A DNA stretch of 22,357 nucleotides, taken from positions 1-22,357 of IMG/VR virus record IMGVR_UViG_3300022894_000039, one strand, 5' to 3'. Made by a program: the position numbers and the translations under genes. Position 1 is the stretch's first letter; each line of letters starts with the position of its first letter. The DNA is from a virus. Positions 100 to 8,739 of the stretch are shown here, in pieces. Under the pieces are notes generated by a model. It saw nothing but the letters and a program-made list of their open reading frames with translations, did no database searches and was not told the DNA's origin.

Positions 100-137
100 A
101 ACATACGCTAATCCTGCGTATACGCAAGTCCTTCATA
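100..137 (-). promoter_or_regulatory. Leftward promoter P1 with tandem operators
   Basis: On the minus strand a -35 like TTGCGT (127-122) and a -10 like TATGTT (105-100) are 16 bases apart, about 30 bases from the start codon of the left-end gene. Two adjacent 17-base operators cover the promoter: TACGCTAATCCTGCGTA at 104-120, a perfect 5-bp inverted repeat with a 7-base spacer, and a degenerate copy TACGCAAGTCCTTCATA at 121-137. Bound protein would cover both promoter elements. The binding protein is unknown. Confidence 0.6.
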
Positions 138-183
138 ATCACGAAATGTTACAACCGGCTCCCGTCGCCAAGGCCAATCTCGC

Positions 184-222
184 ATATTACCACACAATTT
201 TTTAGTACGCAAGTCCTGCGTA
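184..222 (-). promoter_or_regulatory. Leftward promoter P2 with a third operator copy
   Basis: On the minus strand TTGCGT (212-207) and TAATAT (189-184) are exactly 17 bases apart, close to a sigma-70 consensus. The -35 is embedded in TACGCAAGTCCTGCGTA (206-222), the third copy of the TACGC-N7-GCGTA operator seen further left. The two promoters are thus arranged in tandem and should share one repressor. No gene lies between 74 and 256 on either strand that I can support; the stretch is regulatory. Confidence 0.6.
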
Positions 223-2148: not shown

Positions 2149-2351
2149 GCTATCTCCTGCGCTCCTGGATGTTCGGGAACGCGGTTGATACTATTTTCAC
2201 GAAGGGAAAATGAAGCGCCGTCAATGATGATGTTGGCGAGATGGGCGCGCGATATCTCGATCTGAAACACTGCCGTTCCATCCTCTGGCATGAAGTTGAG
2301 GAGGAATCTGTTCGGCGCAGGGCTCGTCAAATAGGCTAGTTTGGCGATCAT
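2145..2351 (-). CDS. Small hypothetical protein (68 aa)
   Basis: The ATG at 2351-2349 overlaps the stop of the GcrA-like gene as ATGA, and its own stop overlaps the TTG start of the replication gene, so it is translationally coupled on both sides. The protein begins MIAKLAYLTSPAPNRFLLNF and contains an ISRAHLANIIIDGASFSL segment. The pattern of alternating strands and one helix suggests a small globular protein; no family is recognised. A longer frame from 2504 would lie within the upstream gene and is rejected. Confidence 0.7.
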   Translation of the reverse strand: MIAKLAYLTSPAPNRFLLNFMPEDGTAVFQIEISRAHLANIIIDGASFSLRENSINRVPEHPGAQEIA

Positions 2352-3145
2352 GCGGACACCCGCAGCTTCCCAGCAATGCGAAGTCGATATATTTGACCGA
2401 TAATTGCATTCTTGGTGCAGTCCCCAAAAATATCCGCGATCTGCTGCGCTGAAGATCCATTGAACCAAAGCGCTATCAATCGAGAAATCCGATCCTCTGA
2501 CCACTCCAATTGCGGAAACGGGCCACTTGGCTGTGGTTTAATCTTTGGCGGCTTCGGCGTCGGTGCGACGAGCGGTGCACTACGCGGTCTATTTTTCTTC
2601 AGCAACTGGGGGCAGTTATGTTGCACCCAAAGATAGGCAATGGTCTTGCCTTCCTCTTCTCCCGCCAACCTCATGGCAGCGTTGAGGGAAAGGCCGGATT
2701 CGACTAGCTCCGTGAGACGCGATACGCGCTGGGAAGGATCGCGCCAGCGGCCCCAATTACTTTTCACCCCATGTTTTTTGCAAATCCAGGTGGCGACAGG
2801 CGTAGTAAATCCAACCTTAGAGGCGGCTGTCGCCAACGAATCTCCGGCCCGCACAAGCGCCAATAGCCGTTCTTCATCGGCGGTCCGCTTGGCTCTGACT
2901 TGCTCTTTGTCCTGTTCAAATAATTCAGCAGCAAAACGGCGCCGTTGCATCCTGTGCTCTATGAGGTTTCCTTTGCGGAGAATTTGATATACACGCTCTC
3001 GCGTAACGCTATACATATCGGCAATCTCCTGAGAGCTTTTGCCTTCCTCGTATAATTTGCACCAAATTGCATTGCGCTGCTCCATATTTTGGGGCGCGCA
3101 CGCCGAAAAATCGACCGTCTTATAAAGCACAAGGGTATCGCTCAT
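2348..3145 (-). CDS. Multi-HTH regulator with GcrA-like C-terminal domain
   Basis: The protein has 265 residues. Residues 215-262 (EWSEDRISRLIALWFNGSSA, then QQIADIF, CTKNAIIGQIYRLRI) match the N-terminal DNA-binding module of GcrA, the alphaproteobacterial cell-cycle regulator that works with sigma-70 at GANTC-methylated promoters. Upstream are three more helix-turn-helix-like stretches: about 24-60, with a sigma region 4-like SVTRERVYQILRK; 92-128; and 140-175. A proline/lysine-rich linker (185-210) separates them from the GcrA-like part. GcrA proper carries this module at the N-terminus and is shorter, so this is a rearranged, larger relative. It is coupled by ATGA to genes on both sides in the replication operon. 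A transcription role is likely; whether it reads methylated GANTC or contacts sigma factor is inference. Confidence 0.75.
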   Translation of the reverse strand: MSDTLVLYKTVDFSACAPQNMEQRNAIWCKLYEEGKSSQEIADMYSVTRERVYQILRKGNLIEHRMQRRRFAAELFEQDKEQVRAKRTADEERLLALVRAGDSLATAASKVGFTTPVATWICKKHGVKSNWGRWRDPSQRVSRLTELVESGLSLNAAMRLAGEEEGKTIAYLWVQHNCPQLLKKNRPRSAPLVAPTPKPPKIKPQPSGPFPQLEWSEDRISRLIALWFNGSSAQQIADIFGDCTKNAIIGQIYRLRIAGKLRVSA

Positions 3146-3315
3146 GCCGCCCTGCTTTCGCGCTTTTCAGCCGCGGTTTGCTTTGCAATGACAAGCGCAA
3201 CCCGAAGCGCTTTTAGTTCGAGCCTGACTCGATCCCATGTATTTGGGCTAGCCGATCGAAGCGCGCGTTCTTTGCACGAGATCTGGATTTTCAGCTTACG
3301 GATGTTGAAACTCAC
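3142..3315 (-). CDS. Small basic helical protein (57 aa)
   Basis: A GTG at 3315-3313 overlaps the stop of the DnaA-domain gene as GTGA, and the TGA at 3144-3142 overlaps the ATG of the GcrA-like gene. The protein begins MSFNIRKLKIQISCKERALR and is rich in lysine and arginine with a predicted long helix, RVRLELKALRVALVIAKQTA. Four-base overlaps on both sides strongly support that it is translated although it is short. No family is recognised; a small nucleic-acid-binding or regulatory protein is possible. Confidence 0.65.
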   Translation of the reverse strand: MSFNIRKLKIQISCKERALRSASPNTWDRVRLELKALRVALVIAKQTAAEKRESRAA

Positions 3316-3827
3316 AGCATCGCCTCCACATGGGCCACGTCGTATGCAATGAGCCAGTCTGTCTTGATGAGGCGGCCGATCTTCTGCACCGCATGCAGGA
3401 CCGTCGTGTGGTCCTTGCCTCCAAGGCGCCGGCCGATCTCGGGAAGTGAGCGGGCGGTGTGGACCTTGGCGAGATACATCGCGATTTGCCGAGGGATAAC
3501 TACGTCAAGCGTTCTGCGCTCGCTTATGAATTCCGCTTTCGTCAATCCGAAATGGGTTGAGGTGGCCGCCTGAATGCAGGCTATCGTCGGACGGTACGGG
3601 CTGGTTTCATCAACGATGTGGAACCAATTTTCCTTCTGCCGTTCCGCCCAGCGCTTTTCCAAGATGTCGATCTGCTCCTGTTCGACGGCGTTAATCTCTG
3701 CGGCCTTCACTGCCTTGTTTCCAATGGCCGCGGCTTTGATCCGCCGCTGTCTTGCAAGGTGAGCCTTGTGCAGCTCGAATATGATCGATGTCTCTTGTAC
3801 CGGCTCGCATGAATCGACGTGATGCAC
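3312..3827 (-). CDS. DnaA domain IV (DnaA-box-binding) protein
   Basis: This is a 171-residue protein with a GTG start at 3827 and a GGGGAG ribosome site. Residues 1-75 are helical and charged. Residues 80-155 match the C-terminal domain of DnaA: RRTLDVVIPRQIAMYLAKVH followed by the DnaA signature SLPEIGRRLGGKDHTTVLHA. The AAA+ ATPase domain III of real DnaA is absent, so it can bind DnaA boxes but cannot oligomerise with ATP or melt an origin. Stand-alone domain IV proteins occur in rhizobial phages. Possible roles are competition with host DnaA, marking of the phage origin, or transcription control. It is the upstream partner of the GcrA-like gene in the same coupled operon. Confidence 0.85.
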   Translation of the reverse strand: MHHVDSCEPVQETSIIFELHKAHLARQRRIKAAAIGNKAVKAAEINAVEQEQIDILEKRWAERQKENWFHIVDETSPYRPTIACIQAATSTHFGLTKAEFISERRTLDVVIPRQIAMYLAKVHTARSLPEIGRRLGGKDHTTVLHAVQKIGRLIKTDWLIAYDVAHVEAML

Positions 3828-3842
3828 TGTTACTCTCCCCGT

Positions 3843-4217
3843 TTACCTGTTAGCCGTGTCCACCAAAGCCTTAGCCGCGCGAACAGAAGCGCGATCAGGC
3901 CCGGCGATTTGTTCTGTCCTTGAGATTTCATGTTCCAGCTTTCGCATTTGCCGCGCGCATTCTTCGCGATAAGCCGCCCTGATGCCCTCGTAGACCGAGA
4001 TGCTGATTGTCTTAAGCCGCTCCCGGCGATATCTGAGCGACCATAGAAAACCGTAGTCTACTCCGTATTCGCGCTCGATCTGGCGCATTGCATTTTCAGT
4101 ATCTCCAGGTCCGCGCGCCTTCATGCGCGTCAGGTCTTTCGACCACTGCTGAGCGGCGTCGATGTAAGCGGCGTCGGACATTGGCAGAACCTTTTTCACC
4201 TTTGCAAATCCTTCCAT
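3843..4217 (-). CDS. Hypothetical helical phage protein (124 aa)
   Basis: The frame begins MEGFAKVKKVLPMSDAAYID at 4217; an internal ATG at 4181 (MSDAAYIDAAQQW) is an equally good start, preceded by an AAGGTGAAAAAGG stretch. The protein is mostly alpha-helical and charged, with GDTENAMRQIEREYGVDYGF and LWSLRYRRERLKTISISVYE segments, and a C-terminal amphipathic helix. The middle resembles small rhizobial phage proteins that pair an aromatic-rich helix with RYRR, but I cannot name a family. It precedes the DnaA-domain gene by 15 bases and is probably in the same transcript. Confidence 0.65.
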   Translation of the reverse strand: MEGFAKVKKVLPMSDAAYIDAAQQWSKDLTRMKARGPGDTENAMRQIEREYGVDYGFLWSLRYRRERLKTISISVYEGIRAAYREECARQMRKLEHEISRTEQIAGPDRASVRAAKALVDTANR

Positions 4218-4940: not shown

Positions 4941-5183
4941 ATGCCAATGGAAATGATCGACGCCTCTCATATCGAGGACAGGTTCGCCACGACTACGAGA
5001 CTGGAGGATGCTGGCGGCGGATGTATCAGGATTTACAACTGCATCGAGAAAGGCGGGATTCTGATCCCGGTCGGAAACGCGGTTGTGTTTCCTATTTCCT
5101 GTATTCTGCAATTGGCAGAGAGCGCTCAAATATTCGCGCGTATGATCGCCAACGTGCATATCGAAGGCCAGCGCGTTCATTGA
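4941..5183 (+). CDS. Hypothetical protein (80 aa) beside the regulatory switch
   Basis: The ATG at 4941 follows an AGGGGAAAG ribosome site; the upstream GTG at 4923 overlaps that site and is rejected. The protein begins MPMEMIDASHIEDRFATTTR and has a central strand-rich part, GCIRIYNCIEKGGILIPVGN, then a hydrophobic VVFPISCILQLAESAQIF helix. It has no recognised domain. It is the only rightward gene between the left operon and the repressor module, and its last seven bases overlap the end of the convergent HTH gene. A small beta-barrel is possible from the GGILIPVGNAVVFP pattern. Confidence 0.6.
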   Translation: MPMEMIDASHIEDRFATTTRLEDAGGGCIRIYNCIEKGGILIPVGNAVVFPISCILQLAESAQIFARMIANVHIEGQRVH

Positions 5184-5419
5184 GCTGGCTCCCCGAACAA
5201 TTTTTCATGTTCCTCGATCAGATCAGGACGCAATTCCTTGGCGGGGATGCCTGTCTTTTCGGTTATGCGCGGTAGGAGGGCCGTATCAATCTTGCGCTTG
5301 AAATTCTCCCAACGATGAATCGTTGGCCGGCCAACGCCGAGCTTGCGGGCCAGGTCCGCCTCCGTTAGGGGCGGCTCCTGAGACGTTCGATAGGCAGTGA
5401 GCGGATGGACGTTTTCCAT
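5177..5419 (-). CDS. Cro/YdaS-like helix-turn-helix regulator
   Basis: An 80-residue protein beginning MENVHPLTAYRTSQEPPLTE. Residues 18-62 form a helix-turn-helix of the Cro/YdaS type: TEADLARKLGVGRPTIHRWE, then a basic FKRKIDTALLPRITEKTGIPAKELRPDL. The length fits a Cro-like protein with no cleavage or dimerisation domain. The ATG at 5419 was chosen because the longer TTG start at 5470 would begin inside an operator. The gene diverges from a second HTH gene at 5515, with two matching operators between them. A -35 TTGACG (5454-5449) lies 30 bases before the start codon with a weak -10, leaving almost no leader. It probably controls its own promoter and the early operon. Confidence 0.8.
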   Translation of the reverse strand: MENVHPLTAYRTSQEPPLTEADLARKLGVGRPTIHRWENFKRKIDTALLPRITEKTGIPAKELRPDLIEEHEKLFGEPAQ

Positions 5420-5427
5420 TCCGCGTT

Positions 5428-5507
5428 GTTGCCAGATTGGAAACGTCTCGTCAAGGGATTTTGTTGCCAACTTGGAAAACGACGCTCCAAATCCTAGGAG
5501 CTATAGT
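5428..5507. promoter_or_regulatory. Divergent operator-promoter region of the HTH pair
   Basis: Two 17-base imperfect palindromes are present: GTTGCCAGATTGGAAAC (5428-5444) and GTTGCCAACTTGGAAAA (5463-5479). They share the pattern GTTKCCA-N3-TGGMAAC with two more copies at 6258-6308. Leftward, TTGACG (5454-5449) is followed by the first operator. Rightward, TATAGT (5502-5507) is seven bases before the ATG at 5515, but there is no good -35; the second operator sits directly upstream. That layout resembles an activated maintenance promoter such as lambda PRM. Operator repetition is seen; the regulatory roles are inferred. Confidence 0.65.
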
Positions 5508-5514
5508 TTCCGGC

Positions 5515-5838
5515 ATGGCAACAGAGATTCGAAAAGGCGCCCGGGTCCATTACTACATCAAGGAATGGATCGATTATTTGGGCCTGAATGACGATACGGT
5601 GGCACAGCGGATGGGGCTGTCGGGCCGGAGCGCCGTTTGGAAGCTGTACTCCCAACAGCACCGCCTTACCCCAGCCAAGGTCGCCCAGATCGCGGATGCG
5701 CTTGACCGAGACCCGAGGGAACTTTTGTTCCCTCCCCAAGTCCCAAGCCTCGACGCCATCGCAGACGGGGCCTCCGACACGGTGCGGGCCTTAATGGTAG
5801 GAGATATTATGCGCCGCATGAAGCGGGGCAATTCATGA
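5515..5838 (+). CDS. XRE-family helix-turn-helix repressor (CI-like role)
   Basis: A 107-residue protein beginning MATEIRKGARVHYYIKEWID. Residues 13-66 form a helix-turn-helix of the XRE type: IKEWIDYLGLNDDTVAQRMG, then a recognition-helix region SGRSAVWKLYSQQHRLTPAK and VAQIADALDRDPRELL. It carries a C-terminal helical tail (ASDTVRALMVGDIMRRMKRG) and no peptidase domain, as in many small rhizobial phage repressors. The ATG at 5515 has no nearby ribosome site, only GGAG 15 bases away, and a -10-like TATAGT ends eight bases upstream, so a leaderless mRNA is plausible. It is coupled by ATGA to the exported-protein gene at 5835. CI-like function is inferred from the divergent layout. Confidence 0.75.
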   Translation: MATEIRKGARVHYYIKEWIDYLGLNDDTVAQRMGLSGRSAVWKLYSQQHRLTPAKVAQIADALDRDPRELLFPPQVPSLDAIADGASDTVRALMVGDIMRRMKRGNS

Positions 5839-6257: not shown

Positions 6258-6310
6258 GTTTCCGAACTGGCAACATTTCTATTGACGTTCTGTTTCCAAT
6301 CTGGCAACGT
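6258..6310 (+). promoter_or_regulatory. Early rightward promoter with two operators
   Basis: GTTTCCGAACTGGCAAC (6258-6274) and GTTTCCAATCTGGCAAC (6292-6308) are the same operator family as between the divergent HTH genes; the second is the exact reverse complement of the copy at 5428-5444. TTGACG (6282-6287) lies between them, four bases before the second operator, exactly as in the leftward HTH promoter. The -10 is not obvious (CAACGT at 17 spacing). Bound repressor would block the recombination operon that starts at 6357. Confidence 0.65.
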
Positions 6311-6805: not shown

Positions 6806-6990
6806 TGGGCATTACCTCCATGTCCGCCGCGGGCGAGCGCGAAACAGCGCTGATGAACTTCTATTCCGCAGAACGTCGCGCTGGCGCAACTCCGCTTGAA
6901 GCAAACGAGCGGCTGCACTTTTTCGCGAAAAGGCTGGATGCACTTTACGAGCGCCAGCAGGCCGCAGTCAAAAAGGAAATCGAGCGATGA
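6802..6990 (+). CDS. Small helical early protein (62 aa)
   Basis: The ATGATG at 6802 overlaps the previous stop. The protein begins MMGITSMSAAGERETALMNF and is mostly helical, with EANERLHFFAKRLDALYERQ in the second half. It is coupled to the ERF gene by a four-base ATGA overlap at 6987. A helical adaptor for the recombination proteins is possible from its place, but no domain is recognised. Internal start ATGs (MSAAGE at 6820) are also possible. Confidence 0.6.
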   Translation: MMGITSMSAAGERETALMNFYSAERRAGATPLEANERLHFFAKRLDALYERQQAAVKKEIER

Positions 6991-7718
6991 ACGCAGTCGA
7001 GAAAATCCAGAACGAACCCGCCCCGCTTGTCGCCGTCACTCCCATGGAGATGTTGAACCGGGCGGTTTCCTCCGGCGCCAGCCTCGATATGGTCGAGAAG
7101 CTGATGGTGCTGCAGGAGAAGTGGGAAAAGAGCCAAGCCCGGAAGGCGTTCGACAATGCAATGGCAGACGCGAAGGCTGAAATCCCCACTATCACCAAGA
7201 ACCGGGAGGTTGATTTCACTTCAGCCAAGGGTCGCACCCACTATCGGTACGAGGATTTGGGCGAGATCGCCCGTGTCGTTAGCCCGATCCTGGCGAAGCA
7301 TGGTCTTTCCTACCGTTACCGGACAACCTCGCATGTCAATGAGCCGGTCACGGTCACTTGCATCGTATCACATCGCGACGGGCATTTCGAGGAAAACACG
7401 CTCTGCGCTGGCCGCGACGAGAGCGGCAACAAGAACAGCATTCAGGCAATCGGATCGACCTCGACCTATTTGCAGAGGATGACGCTAAAGGCTGCGCTCG
7501 GTCTGGCCGTGTCGAACGATGACGATGCAAAGGCGGCCGGCGCCAGCGAAGAAATCAGCCTCGAACAGGTTGAGCAGCTTGTGGCGCTTGCCGATGAGGT
7601 TGGCGCCGACAAGGAAGCCTTCTGCCGATACTTCAAGGTTGATGGCTTTGCCAATATCACCACCAAGGATTTTCCCCGCGCCATCGCAGCGCTCAACAAA
7701 AAGAGGGCCGCGAAGTGA
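6987..7718 (+). CDS. erf: ERF-family single-strand annealing recombinase
   Basis: A 243-residue protein. Residues about 40-180 match the ERF family: an N-terminal VEKLMVLQEKWEKSQARKAF region, then THYRYEDLGEIARVVSPILA, KHGLSYRYRTT, and the diagnostic GSTSTYLQRMTLKAALGLA near 156-174. An acidic segment (SNDDDAK) and a C-terminal helical domain (190-240) follow, as in P22 Erf. ERF proteins anneal complementary single strands and work in the cytoplasm with a partner exonuclease during phage recombination and genome circularisation. The partner exonuclease is encoded directly downstream with a GTGA overlap, which makes a Red-like pair. The length is normal for the family. Confidence 0.9.
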   Translation: MNAVEKIQNEPAPLVAVTPMEMLNRAVSSGASLDMVEKLMVLQEKWEKSQARKAFDNAMADAKAEIPTITKNREVDFTSAKGRTHYRYEDLGEIARVVSPILAKHGLSYRYRTTSHVNEPVTVTCIVSHRDGHFEENTLCAGRDESGNKNSIQAIGSTSTYLQRMTLKAALGLAVSNDDDAKAAGASEEISLEQVEQLVALADEVGADKEAFCRYFKVDGFANITTKDFPRAIAALNKKRAAK

Positions 7719-8353
7719 CCGAAGAAATCATCCAAGGCTCGGACGAATGGAAGGCCTTGCGGCTTGGTAAGGTGACGGCTTCTCGCGTCGCTGACGTGAT
7801 CGCCAAGACCAAGAGCGGGTATAGCGCCGGCCGTGCGAACTACGCTGCCCAGCTCATTGCCGAGCGCCTGACTGGCACGGTTGCGGAGTCCTACACGAAC
7901 GCGGCCATGCAGCACGGCACCGAGACCGAGCCGGAAGCGCGTGCAGCGTATGAGTTCTACCAGGGTGTAACCGTAAAGGAGGTGGCTTTCGTTCCGCACC
8001 CGAAGATCGACCAAGCTGGTTGCTCCCCAGACGGCTTGGTTGATGATGACGGCTTGGTTGAGATCAAGTGTCCCCAGACTGCTACCCACCTGGAAACGCT
8101 CCTCGGCCAAGCCGTGCCATCAAAGTACGAAACTCAAATGCAGTTTCAGATGGCCTGCACGGGCCGTAGCTACTGCGATTTTGTCTCTTACGATCCCCGG
8201 ATGCCGGAGAACATGCGCCTGTTTATCAAGCGCGTGCCCCGCGATGACAAGCGGATAGCAGAACTGGAAACCGAGATTGCCGCGTTTCTCCTCGAACTGG
8301 CGGTCAAGCTCTCGCAGCTCAATAGCCTCTATGGCGAGAAAGAAGCAGCATGA
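7715..8353 (+). CDS. YqaJ/lambda-exonuclease-type 5'-3' exonuclease
   Basis: A 212-residue protein starting at GTG 7715 and overlapping the ERF stop as GTGA. The fold is the PD-(D/E)XK nuclease of the YqaJ viral recombinase family: IIQGSDEWKALRLGKVTASR at the N-terminus, HGTETEPEA (metal-binding Glu near 72-74), SPDGLVDDDG (Asp106), EIKCP (Glu117, Lys119) and a QMQFQMA motif near 141-147. All expected catalytic residues are present. It would degrade one strand from double-strand ends and load the ERF annealing protein. It is coupled to the NinB gene by ATGA. The length is typical. Confidence 0.9.
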   Translation: MTEEIIQGSDEWKALRLGKVTASRVADVIAKTKSGYSAGRANYAAQLIAERLTGTVAESYTNAAMQHGTETEPEARAAYEFYQGVTVKEVAFVPHPKIDQAGCSPDGLVDDDGLVEIKCPQTATHLETLLGQAVPSKYETQMQFQMACTGRSYCDFVSYDPRMPENMRLFIKRVPRDDKRIAELETEIAAFLLELAVKLSQLNSLYGEKEAA

Positions 8354-8739
8354 GCCGGGAAGTTGTCGAGATCAGGGATGAGCTTGACCGCCGCAAGATA
8401 GCCGGCTGGGCAGCGCGCGTGCCGATAGGAACAACGGTCGAGTTTCGCGCGCCGAGGCGATCAAGCGACCAAAACAACCTGCTTTGGTCCCTCCTCGGTC
8501 AGATCAGCAAGCAAGTCGATTGGTATGGCCAGAAGCTCACCAGTGAGGATTGGAAGGACGTTATGAGCGCATCTTTGCGCCGCGCGCGCGTTGTTCCTGG
8601 CATCGACGCTGGCAGCTTCGTACCGCTTGGAATGAGAACGTCGCAGATGACCAAGCAGGAATTAGCCGACTTGGTTGAGCTTATTTATGCCTTCGGCGCC
8701 GAGCATGGCGTCAAGTTTCGCGAATTGGAAATGGCATGA
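8350..8739 (+). CDS. ninB: NinB-family recombination mediator
   Basis: A 129-residue protein matching the NinB/Orf family of phage recombination proteins, with FRAPRRSSDQNNLLWSLLGQ, TSEDWKDVMSASLRRARVVP, and a C-terminal TSQMTKQELADLVELIYAFG followed by EHGVKF. In lambda, NinB (Orf) replaces host RecFOR by binding SSB and single-stranded DNA and helping strand exchange. It directly follows the ERF and exonuclease genes and completes a Red-like set. The start at 8350 overlaps the exonuclease stop. All conserved blocks are present and the length is close to that of lambda Orf. Confidence 0.88.
   Translation: MSREVVEIRDELDRRKIAGWAARVPIGTTVEFRAPRRSSDQNNLLWSLLGQISKQVDWYGQKLTSEDWKDVMSASLRRARVVPGIDAGSFVPLGMRTSQMTKQELADLVELIYAFGAEHGVKFRELEMA

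Follow-up and report, generated by a model that had tools for sequence, protein, structure and literature searches.

A lone DnaA domain IV gene and a gene with a GcrA-type DNA-binding domain share an operon with an initiator-type gene in a likely temperate phage of Bradyrhizobium-like bacteria

In alphaproteobacteria, DnaA, GcrA and CtrA act in this order to time the cell cycle. What, then, would a phage do with relatives of the first two in a single operon? This question is raised by a stretch of viral DNA of 22,357 bases (the window), which is the whole IMG/VR record IMGVR_UViG_3300022894_000039 and is classed as linear, so it may be a fragment. Its plus strand carries an integrase gene and the genes of Erf, a YqaJ/RecE-type exonuclease and NinB (6987–8739; phrog_155, phrog_149, phrog_72), genes of HTH regulators lie mid-window, and the operon of interest is on the minus strand. 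Compared at the DNA level with annotated phages, the window has no near relative. Counterparts of its Erf, exonuclease, NinB, DnaA domain IV and 68-aa proteins are found in the same layout in the Bradyrhizobium phages ppBjS10J-1 and ppBeUSDA76-2, and relatives of Erf occur in the sequenced genomes of Bradyrhizobium centrolobii (69%) and Bosea lathyri (55%). Judged by these sequence relatives, the window is likely a temperate phage of Bradyrhizobium-like (soil) bacteria, and the rhizobial-type host supposed in the preliminary description is thus supported by Bradyrhizobium and Bosea prophage relatives.

The gene at 3312–3827 (minus strand) encodes a protein of 171 aa, which had been read as a lone DnaA domain IV. 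A Pfam search agrees, with PF08299 (Bac_DnaA_C) as the single domain (aa 84–150; E 1.8e-26, 92.4 bits; DnaA-box-binding domain at 3378–3578) and no match to AAA+ or any other DnaA domain. The match to TIGR00362 is limited to model positions 332–436, and the DnaA chains 1j1v_A, 3pvp_A and 8btg_A of PDB match at aa 70–167. Seven residues (R105, R113, P129, D139, H140, T141 and T142) are invariant among 14 lone DnaA domain IV relatives from phages, and we take these positions to be the DnaA-box contacts in E. coli DnaA (structure 1J1V). Such a protein should bind DnaA boxes, and would do so with no ATP binding, DnaA-type oligomerisation or DNA opening; ATP-driven origin opening is not expected of it because it has no domain I and no AAA+ domain. 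Viral DnaA-like proteins of 338–427 aa (L007, L012–L014, L016, L017, L023) form a class apart from the lone domain IV, and several of them have a recognisable nucleotide-binding region and a shortened N-terminus.

The second gene (2348–3145, minus strand) encodes a protein of 265 aa, in which four three-helix HTH units are predicted (aa 21–60, 86–124, 137–177 and 217–258). The last unit belongs to a GcrA-type DNA-binding domain (aa 214–261; 2363–2506, minus strand), which aligns with positions 2–49 of 155 in the PF07750 profile (E 5.6e-12; 46.7 bits, cut-off 26.9), shares 21 of 48 residues with Caulobacter GcrA and matches the GcrA DNA-binding chain 5yiu_A (E 1.9e-8). In a single-sequence AlphaFold2 model (pLDDT 70; 83–90 in the last HTH), Foldseek places the last unit on 5YIU with 0.7 Å rmsd over 43 residues, TMt 0.84 and probability 1.00, at a weak E-value (0.3) for so short a match. 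The N-terminal HTH (2972–3058, minus strand) is of the resolvase or sigma70 region 4 type (HTH_7 37.6 bits, Sigma70_r4 25.5 bits, both above cut-off).

The GcrA-like module of the preliminary description is therefore genuine as a DNA-binding domain, both in the profile search and in structure prediction, but the protein that carries it is not a GcrA. It scores 48.5 bits against the GcrA equivalog NF050816, whose full-length threshold is 280 bits, and the two-domain architecture is absent. The sigma-interacting domain, which spans aa 108–173 in Caulobacter GcrA (PMC7403470), is absent with its C..CG..YC..H motif from the 265-aa protein and, by local HMM, from the window. Since this domain is missing and three further HTH units precede the GcrA module, the protein appears GcrA-like in its DNA-binding half and not GcrA itself; without the portion that works on RNA polymerase, it cannot in its present form serve as a GcrA-type sigma70 cofactor. 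Binding to GANTC is uncertain, because the putative recognition helix (TKNAIIGQIYRLR) is unlike that of Caulobacter GcrA (TRNAVIGKVHRLG) at several positions. No full-length relative of the protein turned up when viral and genome contigs were scanned for exact patterns. Among the matches listed for 297 host-family genomes, each alignment is confined to the GcrA domain (aa about 185–264), and a host counterpart of the three N-terminal HTH units is thus missing there. Four PF07750 genes are present in Bradyrhizobium centrolobii, of which one (L274; G097:C26) is a form with the DNA-binding domain only and another (L273; G097:C4:6398–6880) may lie in a prophage.

The two genes stand in a leftward operon, whose probable first gene encodes a Cro/CI-type HTH protein (5177–5419, minus strand; HTH_3 28.6 bits, phrog_35). 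From upstream, the order is a gene for 124 aa, the DnaA domain IV gene, a gene for 57 aa, the GcrA-HTH gene, a gene for 68 aa and a gene of initiator or loader type, all on the minus strand. The 124-aa gene (3843–4217; phrog_35370, 93 bits) has a relative by blastp in phage ctOK67 (L041, 5893–6225), which also sits upstream of a DnaA domain IV gene. The 57-aa gene (3142–3315) overlaps both neighbours and has probable homologues, judged by eye, of 51–62 aa in the same operon of L038, L039, L043, L125, L229 and L269. The 68-aa product (2145–2351), which begins with MIAKLAYLTSP, is a conserved marker of the operon; its counterparts in ppBeUSDA76-2 and ppBjS10J-1 (44.8–45.8% identity) directly follow the small gene. 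The last gene (1261–2148) encodes a 295-aa protein matching phrog_2514 (DnaD-like helicase loader; 1.5e-16) and phrog_3926 (replication initiation; 4.9e-17), with relatives of up to 56% identity over the full length in viral contigs. Translational coupling and nearby replication genes, both proposed earlier, are borne out by a chain of overlaps that runs from the DnaA domain IV gene through GTGA (to the 57-aa gene), ATGA (to the GcrA-HTH gene), ATGA (to the 68-aa gene) and TTGA into the initiator gene; only the 57-aa gene separates the pair.

The order in the window is of a Bradyrhizobium type, with the upstream gene, DnaA domain IV, a small gene, the MIAKLAYL gene and the initiator gene running divergently from Erf-YqaJ-NinB. 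As in the window, ppBjS10J-1 (OP596615), ppBeUSDA76-2 (OP596614) and a B. centrolobii prophage (L269) have the upstream gene, DnaA domain IV, a gene for 57–62 aa and the MIAKLAYL gene, and the first two also have Erf-YqaJ-NinB on the strand opposite the operon. Unlike the window, all three lack the GcrA-type gene, the small gene being followed directly by the MIAKLAYL gene. Because these otherwise like operons do without it, the GcrA-type gene has been added at this point and is accessory.

Other related phages fill the same positions differently. In L234 the order is DnaA domain IV, a full-length GcrA, the MIAKLAYL gene, a DUF2312-like gene and the initiator gene, and its GcrA occupies the position of the GcrA-HTH gene of the window. 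L229, the phage nearest to the window in Erf (89% identical), has a full-length GcrA in the place of DnaA domain IV, and L125, whose initiator is 56% identical, has there a gene with the GcrA DNA-binding domain only (27.5 bits, cut-off 26.9). Since these three place GcrA or DNA-binding-domain-only genes in the positions of the window's genes, the modules are interchangeable in this slot. The DnaA domain IV protein most like that of the window (58%) comes from L043 (IMGVR_UViG_3300002461_000252). A 287-aa multi-HTH protein in L229 (7070–7933, minus strand) has its GcrA-type domain at the N-terminus, so that the module order is the reverse of that in the window protein.

The combination also recurs beyond these phages. 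With the window DnaA domain IV protein as query, 28 viral records were found, and 6 of them contain a PF07750 gene, on the same strand and about 3 kb away at most. A profile search for lone DnaA domain IV yielded 80 loci (67 new), with PF07750 matches in 14 more records, several directly adjacent and one exception distant and on the other strand. Using local HMMs and 6-kb flanks (an alignment of eight GcrA sequences proved too divergent for scanning), a GcrA module was detected at 17 of 88 non-redundant DnaA domain IV viral loci; all 17 share its strand and lie no more than 3 kb away, and 11 are within 1 kb, while the fractions for random ORFs in these flanks are 0.58 for the same strand, 0.35 for the same strand within 3 kb and 0.15 within 1 kb. 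In the reverse search, 14 of 66 non-redundant loci chosen by GcrA have a DnaA domain IV neighbour, on the same strand in 14, within 3 kb in 13 and within 1 kb in 9 cases (random ORFs 0.61, 0.39 and 0.17). These two samples, obtained with thresholds and HMMs built for the present analysis, have two contigs in common, and early genes would in part be expected to cluster on one strand anyway.

A sample chosen by Erf favours neither gene. Among its 23 loci that reach the operon, DnaA domain IV is found in 9 and a GcrA module in 8 by manual count, and both are found in 3 (L234, L251 and, weakly, L267) against 3.1 expected, so a tight co-dependence of the two genes is not supported. As co-occurrence in this sample equals chance, DnaA domain IV and GcrA need not depend on each other: they are common cargo of a shared operon slot and not an obligate pair. 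Such independent assortment is what one would see if two unrelated, common phage HTH genes had become neighbours by accident. But the partners in the two selected samples (17 and 14) all share the strand and lie mostly within 1–3 kb, the same slot is used in diverged phages, and one contig joins the GcrA sigma-interacting domain to DnaA domain IV in a single protein that scores above both Pfam cut-offs. Accidental placing is thus already unlikely for the group, and we regard it as highly improbable here. The recurrence suggests that phages repeatedly reuse host cell-cycle switches.

The fusion is a 277-aa ORF in L099 (IMGVR_UViG_3300016667_000580, 3365–4198), seen in this one contig only, which combines the sigma-interacting domain of GcrA (36.1 bits against a cut-off of 26.9) with a DnaA domain IV (85.9 bits), both above the Pfam cut-offs. 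It rests on these HMM scores, because the single-sequence structure model is poor (pLDDT 43, about 30 in the sigma-interacting region). In L043 (6327–6518) a lone GcrA sigma-interacting domain of 63 aa overlaps the stop codon of the DnaA domain IV gene by ATGA. L106 was considered as a DnaA domain IV protein with a tail like the GcrA DNA-binding domain, and was set aside as weak (15.5 bits on a local HMM, no Pfam GcrA match). One reading of L099 and L043 is that alphaproteobacterial phages have dismantled and rebuilt GcrA with a DnaA domain IV head and a sigma-binding tail, as one polypeptide or as two coupled genes, which would send sigma70 polymerase to promoters with DnaA boxes and not to methylated GANTC; the window would then be a blocking version with heads only. 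We consider this distinctly unlikely.

Coupling to an initiator-type gene invites another explanation, in which the DnaA domain IV protein would mark the phage origin and deliver the DnaD-like loader and the host helicase; the multi-HTH protein would then be an accessory binder of the origin or of iterons. DnaA domain IV genes also adjoin replisome-organizer or DUF1376 genes in ppBeUSDA76-2, RHph_N28_2 and ctOK67, and tandem-HTH proteins suit repeated sites (2lvs ranks second in the Foldseek search with the 265-aa model). However, the slot holds proteins with GcrA or its DNA-binding domain too, which are not initiators, and a cluster of DnaA boxes that could serve as an origin was found neither in the window, a fragment whose origin may lie outside, nor around the lone DnaA domain IV genes. 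The box TTATCCACA is absent from the window, with one single-mismatch site against 2.5 expected, and in 717 kb surrounding 68 such genes TTATNCACA occurs 12 times against 7.0 expected, with no clear enrichment and none at 57 loci. A conventional DnaA-box origin is therefore lacking in the vicinity of these genes, which makes host boxes or a changed specificity more likely; an origin role seems doubtful to us.

In the window GANTC occurs 49 times where 106 are expected, a depletion of about two-fold; around other lone DnaA domain IV genes the depletion is three-fold, and loci without DnaA domain IV show it too. Such depletion is to be expected of DNA living in CcrM hosts, and is uninformative on the binding of the window protein.

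Alternatively, both proteins could have diverged in specificity and regulate nothing but phage promoters, their resemblance to cell-cycle proteins reflecting ancestry without function. The operon adjoins a repressor gene with two pairs of operator-like repeats: one pair of TGCCANNTTGGAAA, 35 bp apart, lies upstream of the leftward operon (5430–5478) and a second, inverted pair, 34 bp apart, lies upstream of the rightward (Erf) genes (6259–6306), the window holding 7 matches with at most 2 mismatches against 2.2 expected. The N-terminal three HTH units, which lack a host counterpart among the listed matches in the 297 genomes, would also fit. Against a purely phage-directed switch, the box-contact residues of DnaA domain IV do not vary even among highly diverged phage proteins, suggesting that specificity has been kept, and we hold this explanation to be unlikely. 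The two TGCCANNTTGGAAA pairs point in opposite directions on either side of the HTH repressor-like gene (5515–5838), in a lambda-like OL/OR layout. Near the left end of the window (104–222) there are three direct repeats of the TACGCAAGTCCTGCGTA kind, with spacings of 17 and 85.

The reading that we tentatively prefer, as the likeliest action, is that these effector-less proteins occupy host sites of the DnaA and GcrA types, or phage promoters resembling them. The sequences show the domains, the operon, the recurrence of the pair and the exchange of modules in the slot; DNA binding, host targets and timing we infer. Part of the leftward early operon of this temperate phage is a slot for interchangeable DNA-binding modules taken from host cell-cycle regulators, and related phages fill it with a DnaA domain IV by itself, with GcrA whole or in part, or with modules of both kinds. 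The GcrA-type protein, which lacks the sigma70-recruiting part, should bind DNA through up to four HTH units, and the last of these may read sites of the GcrA type (GANTC). At an early stage of infection, or once the prophage is induced, both proteins would occupy such sites in the host and/or phage promoters as competitors or repressors, and the initiator gene that closes the operon would meanwhile start phage replication. Several things count against occupancy of host sites. Membership in a replication operon fits a role at the phage origin equally well, the chance-level co-occurrence of the two genes means that they need not work together, the GcrA-type gene is accessory, its product differs from Caulobacter GcrA in the recognition helix, and GANTC depletion is shared by loci that have no DnaA domain IV. 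The proposal in the preliminary description that the phage may use or block host cell-cycle control is limited by this independence and by the lack of the GcrA part directed at RNA polymerase.

GcrA and DnaA-like genes borne by phages are already known singly. Their neighbourhood in many phages, the position in an early operon beside the initiator gene, and the fusion in L099 suggest that phages infecting bacteria with CcrM adjust to the S-phase programme of the host. As small separable proteins, they offer a means to probe competition for DnaA-box and GANTC sites. The preliminary description called the combination little described, which is fair: there are papers on phage GcrA and one survey that lists both families, none of them on the pair, and our literature search, confined to papers open without subscription, found no paper on the DnaA domain IV and GcrA neighbourhood. 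That 2025 survey of phiLM21-like prophages, in the part that tabulates one DnaA and five GcrA genes, draws no link between them (PMC12429752). For cell-cycle binding sites in phages, GcrA and DnaA sites were reported to be without positional asymmetry (PMC9437464).

Among known systems, gp222 of phiCbK is a GcrA homologue, described in the relevant passages as conserved along GcrA and proposed in 2012 to push the host towards replication (PMC3556154); GcrA-like genes are likewise reported, in the sections concerned, on Atu_ph08 (gp5; PMC6630229) and on brucellaphage Y17 (ORF4/5; PMC11836647). In the passages of these papers and of the phiLM21-like survey that deal with the GcrA homologues, no lone DnaA domain IV neighbour is reported, unlike in the window, which shares with all of them a GcrA-family gene on an alphaproteobacterial phage. 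Compared with bacterial DnaA (TIGR00362; PDB 1j1v, 3pvp, 8btg), the 171-aa protein has domain IV and the conserved DNA-contact residues in common and lacks domains I and III (AAA+). Compared with GcrA of Caulobacter crescentus (PF07750, NF050816; PDB 5yiu, 7ye1), the 265-aa protein lacks the sigma-interacting domain and shares a homologous DNA-binding domain of the same predicted fold, which is N-terminal in Caulobacter GcrA and in the window lies at the C-terminus, with three extra HTH units.
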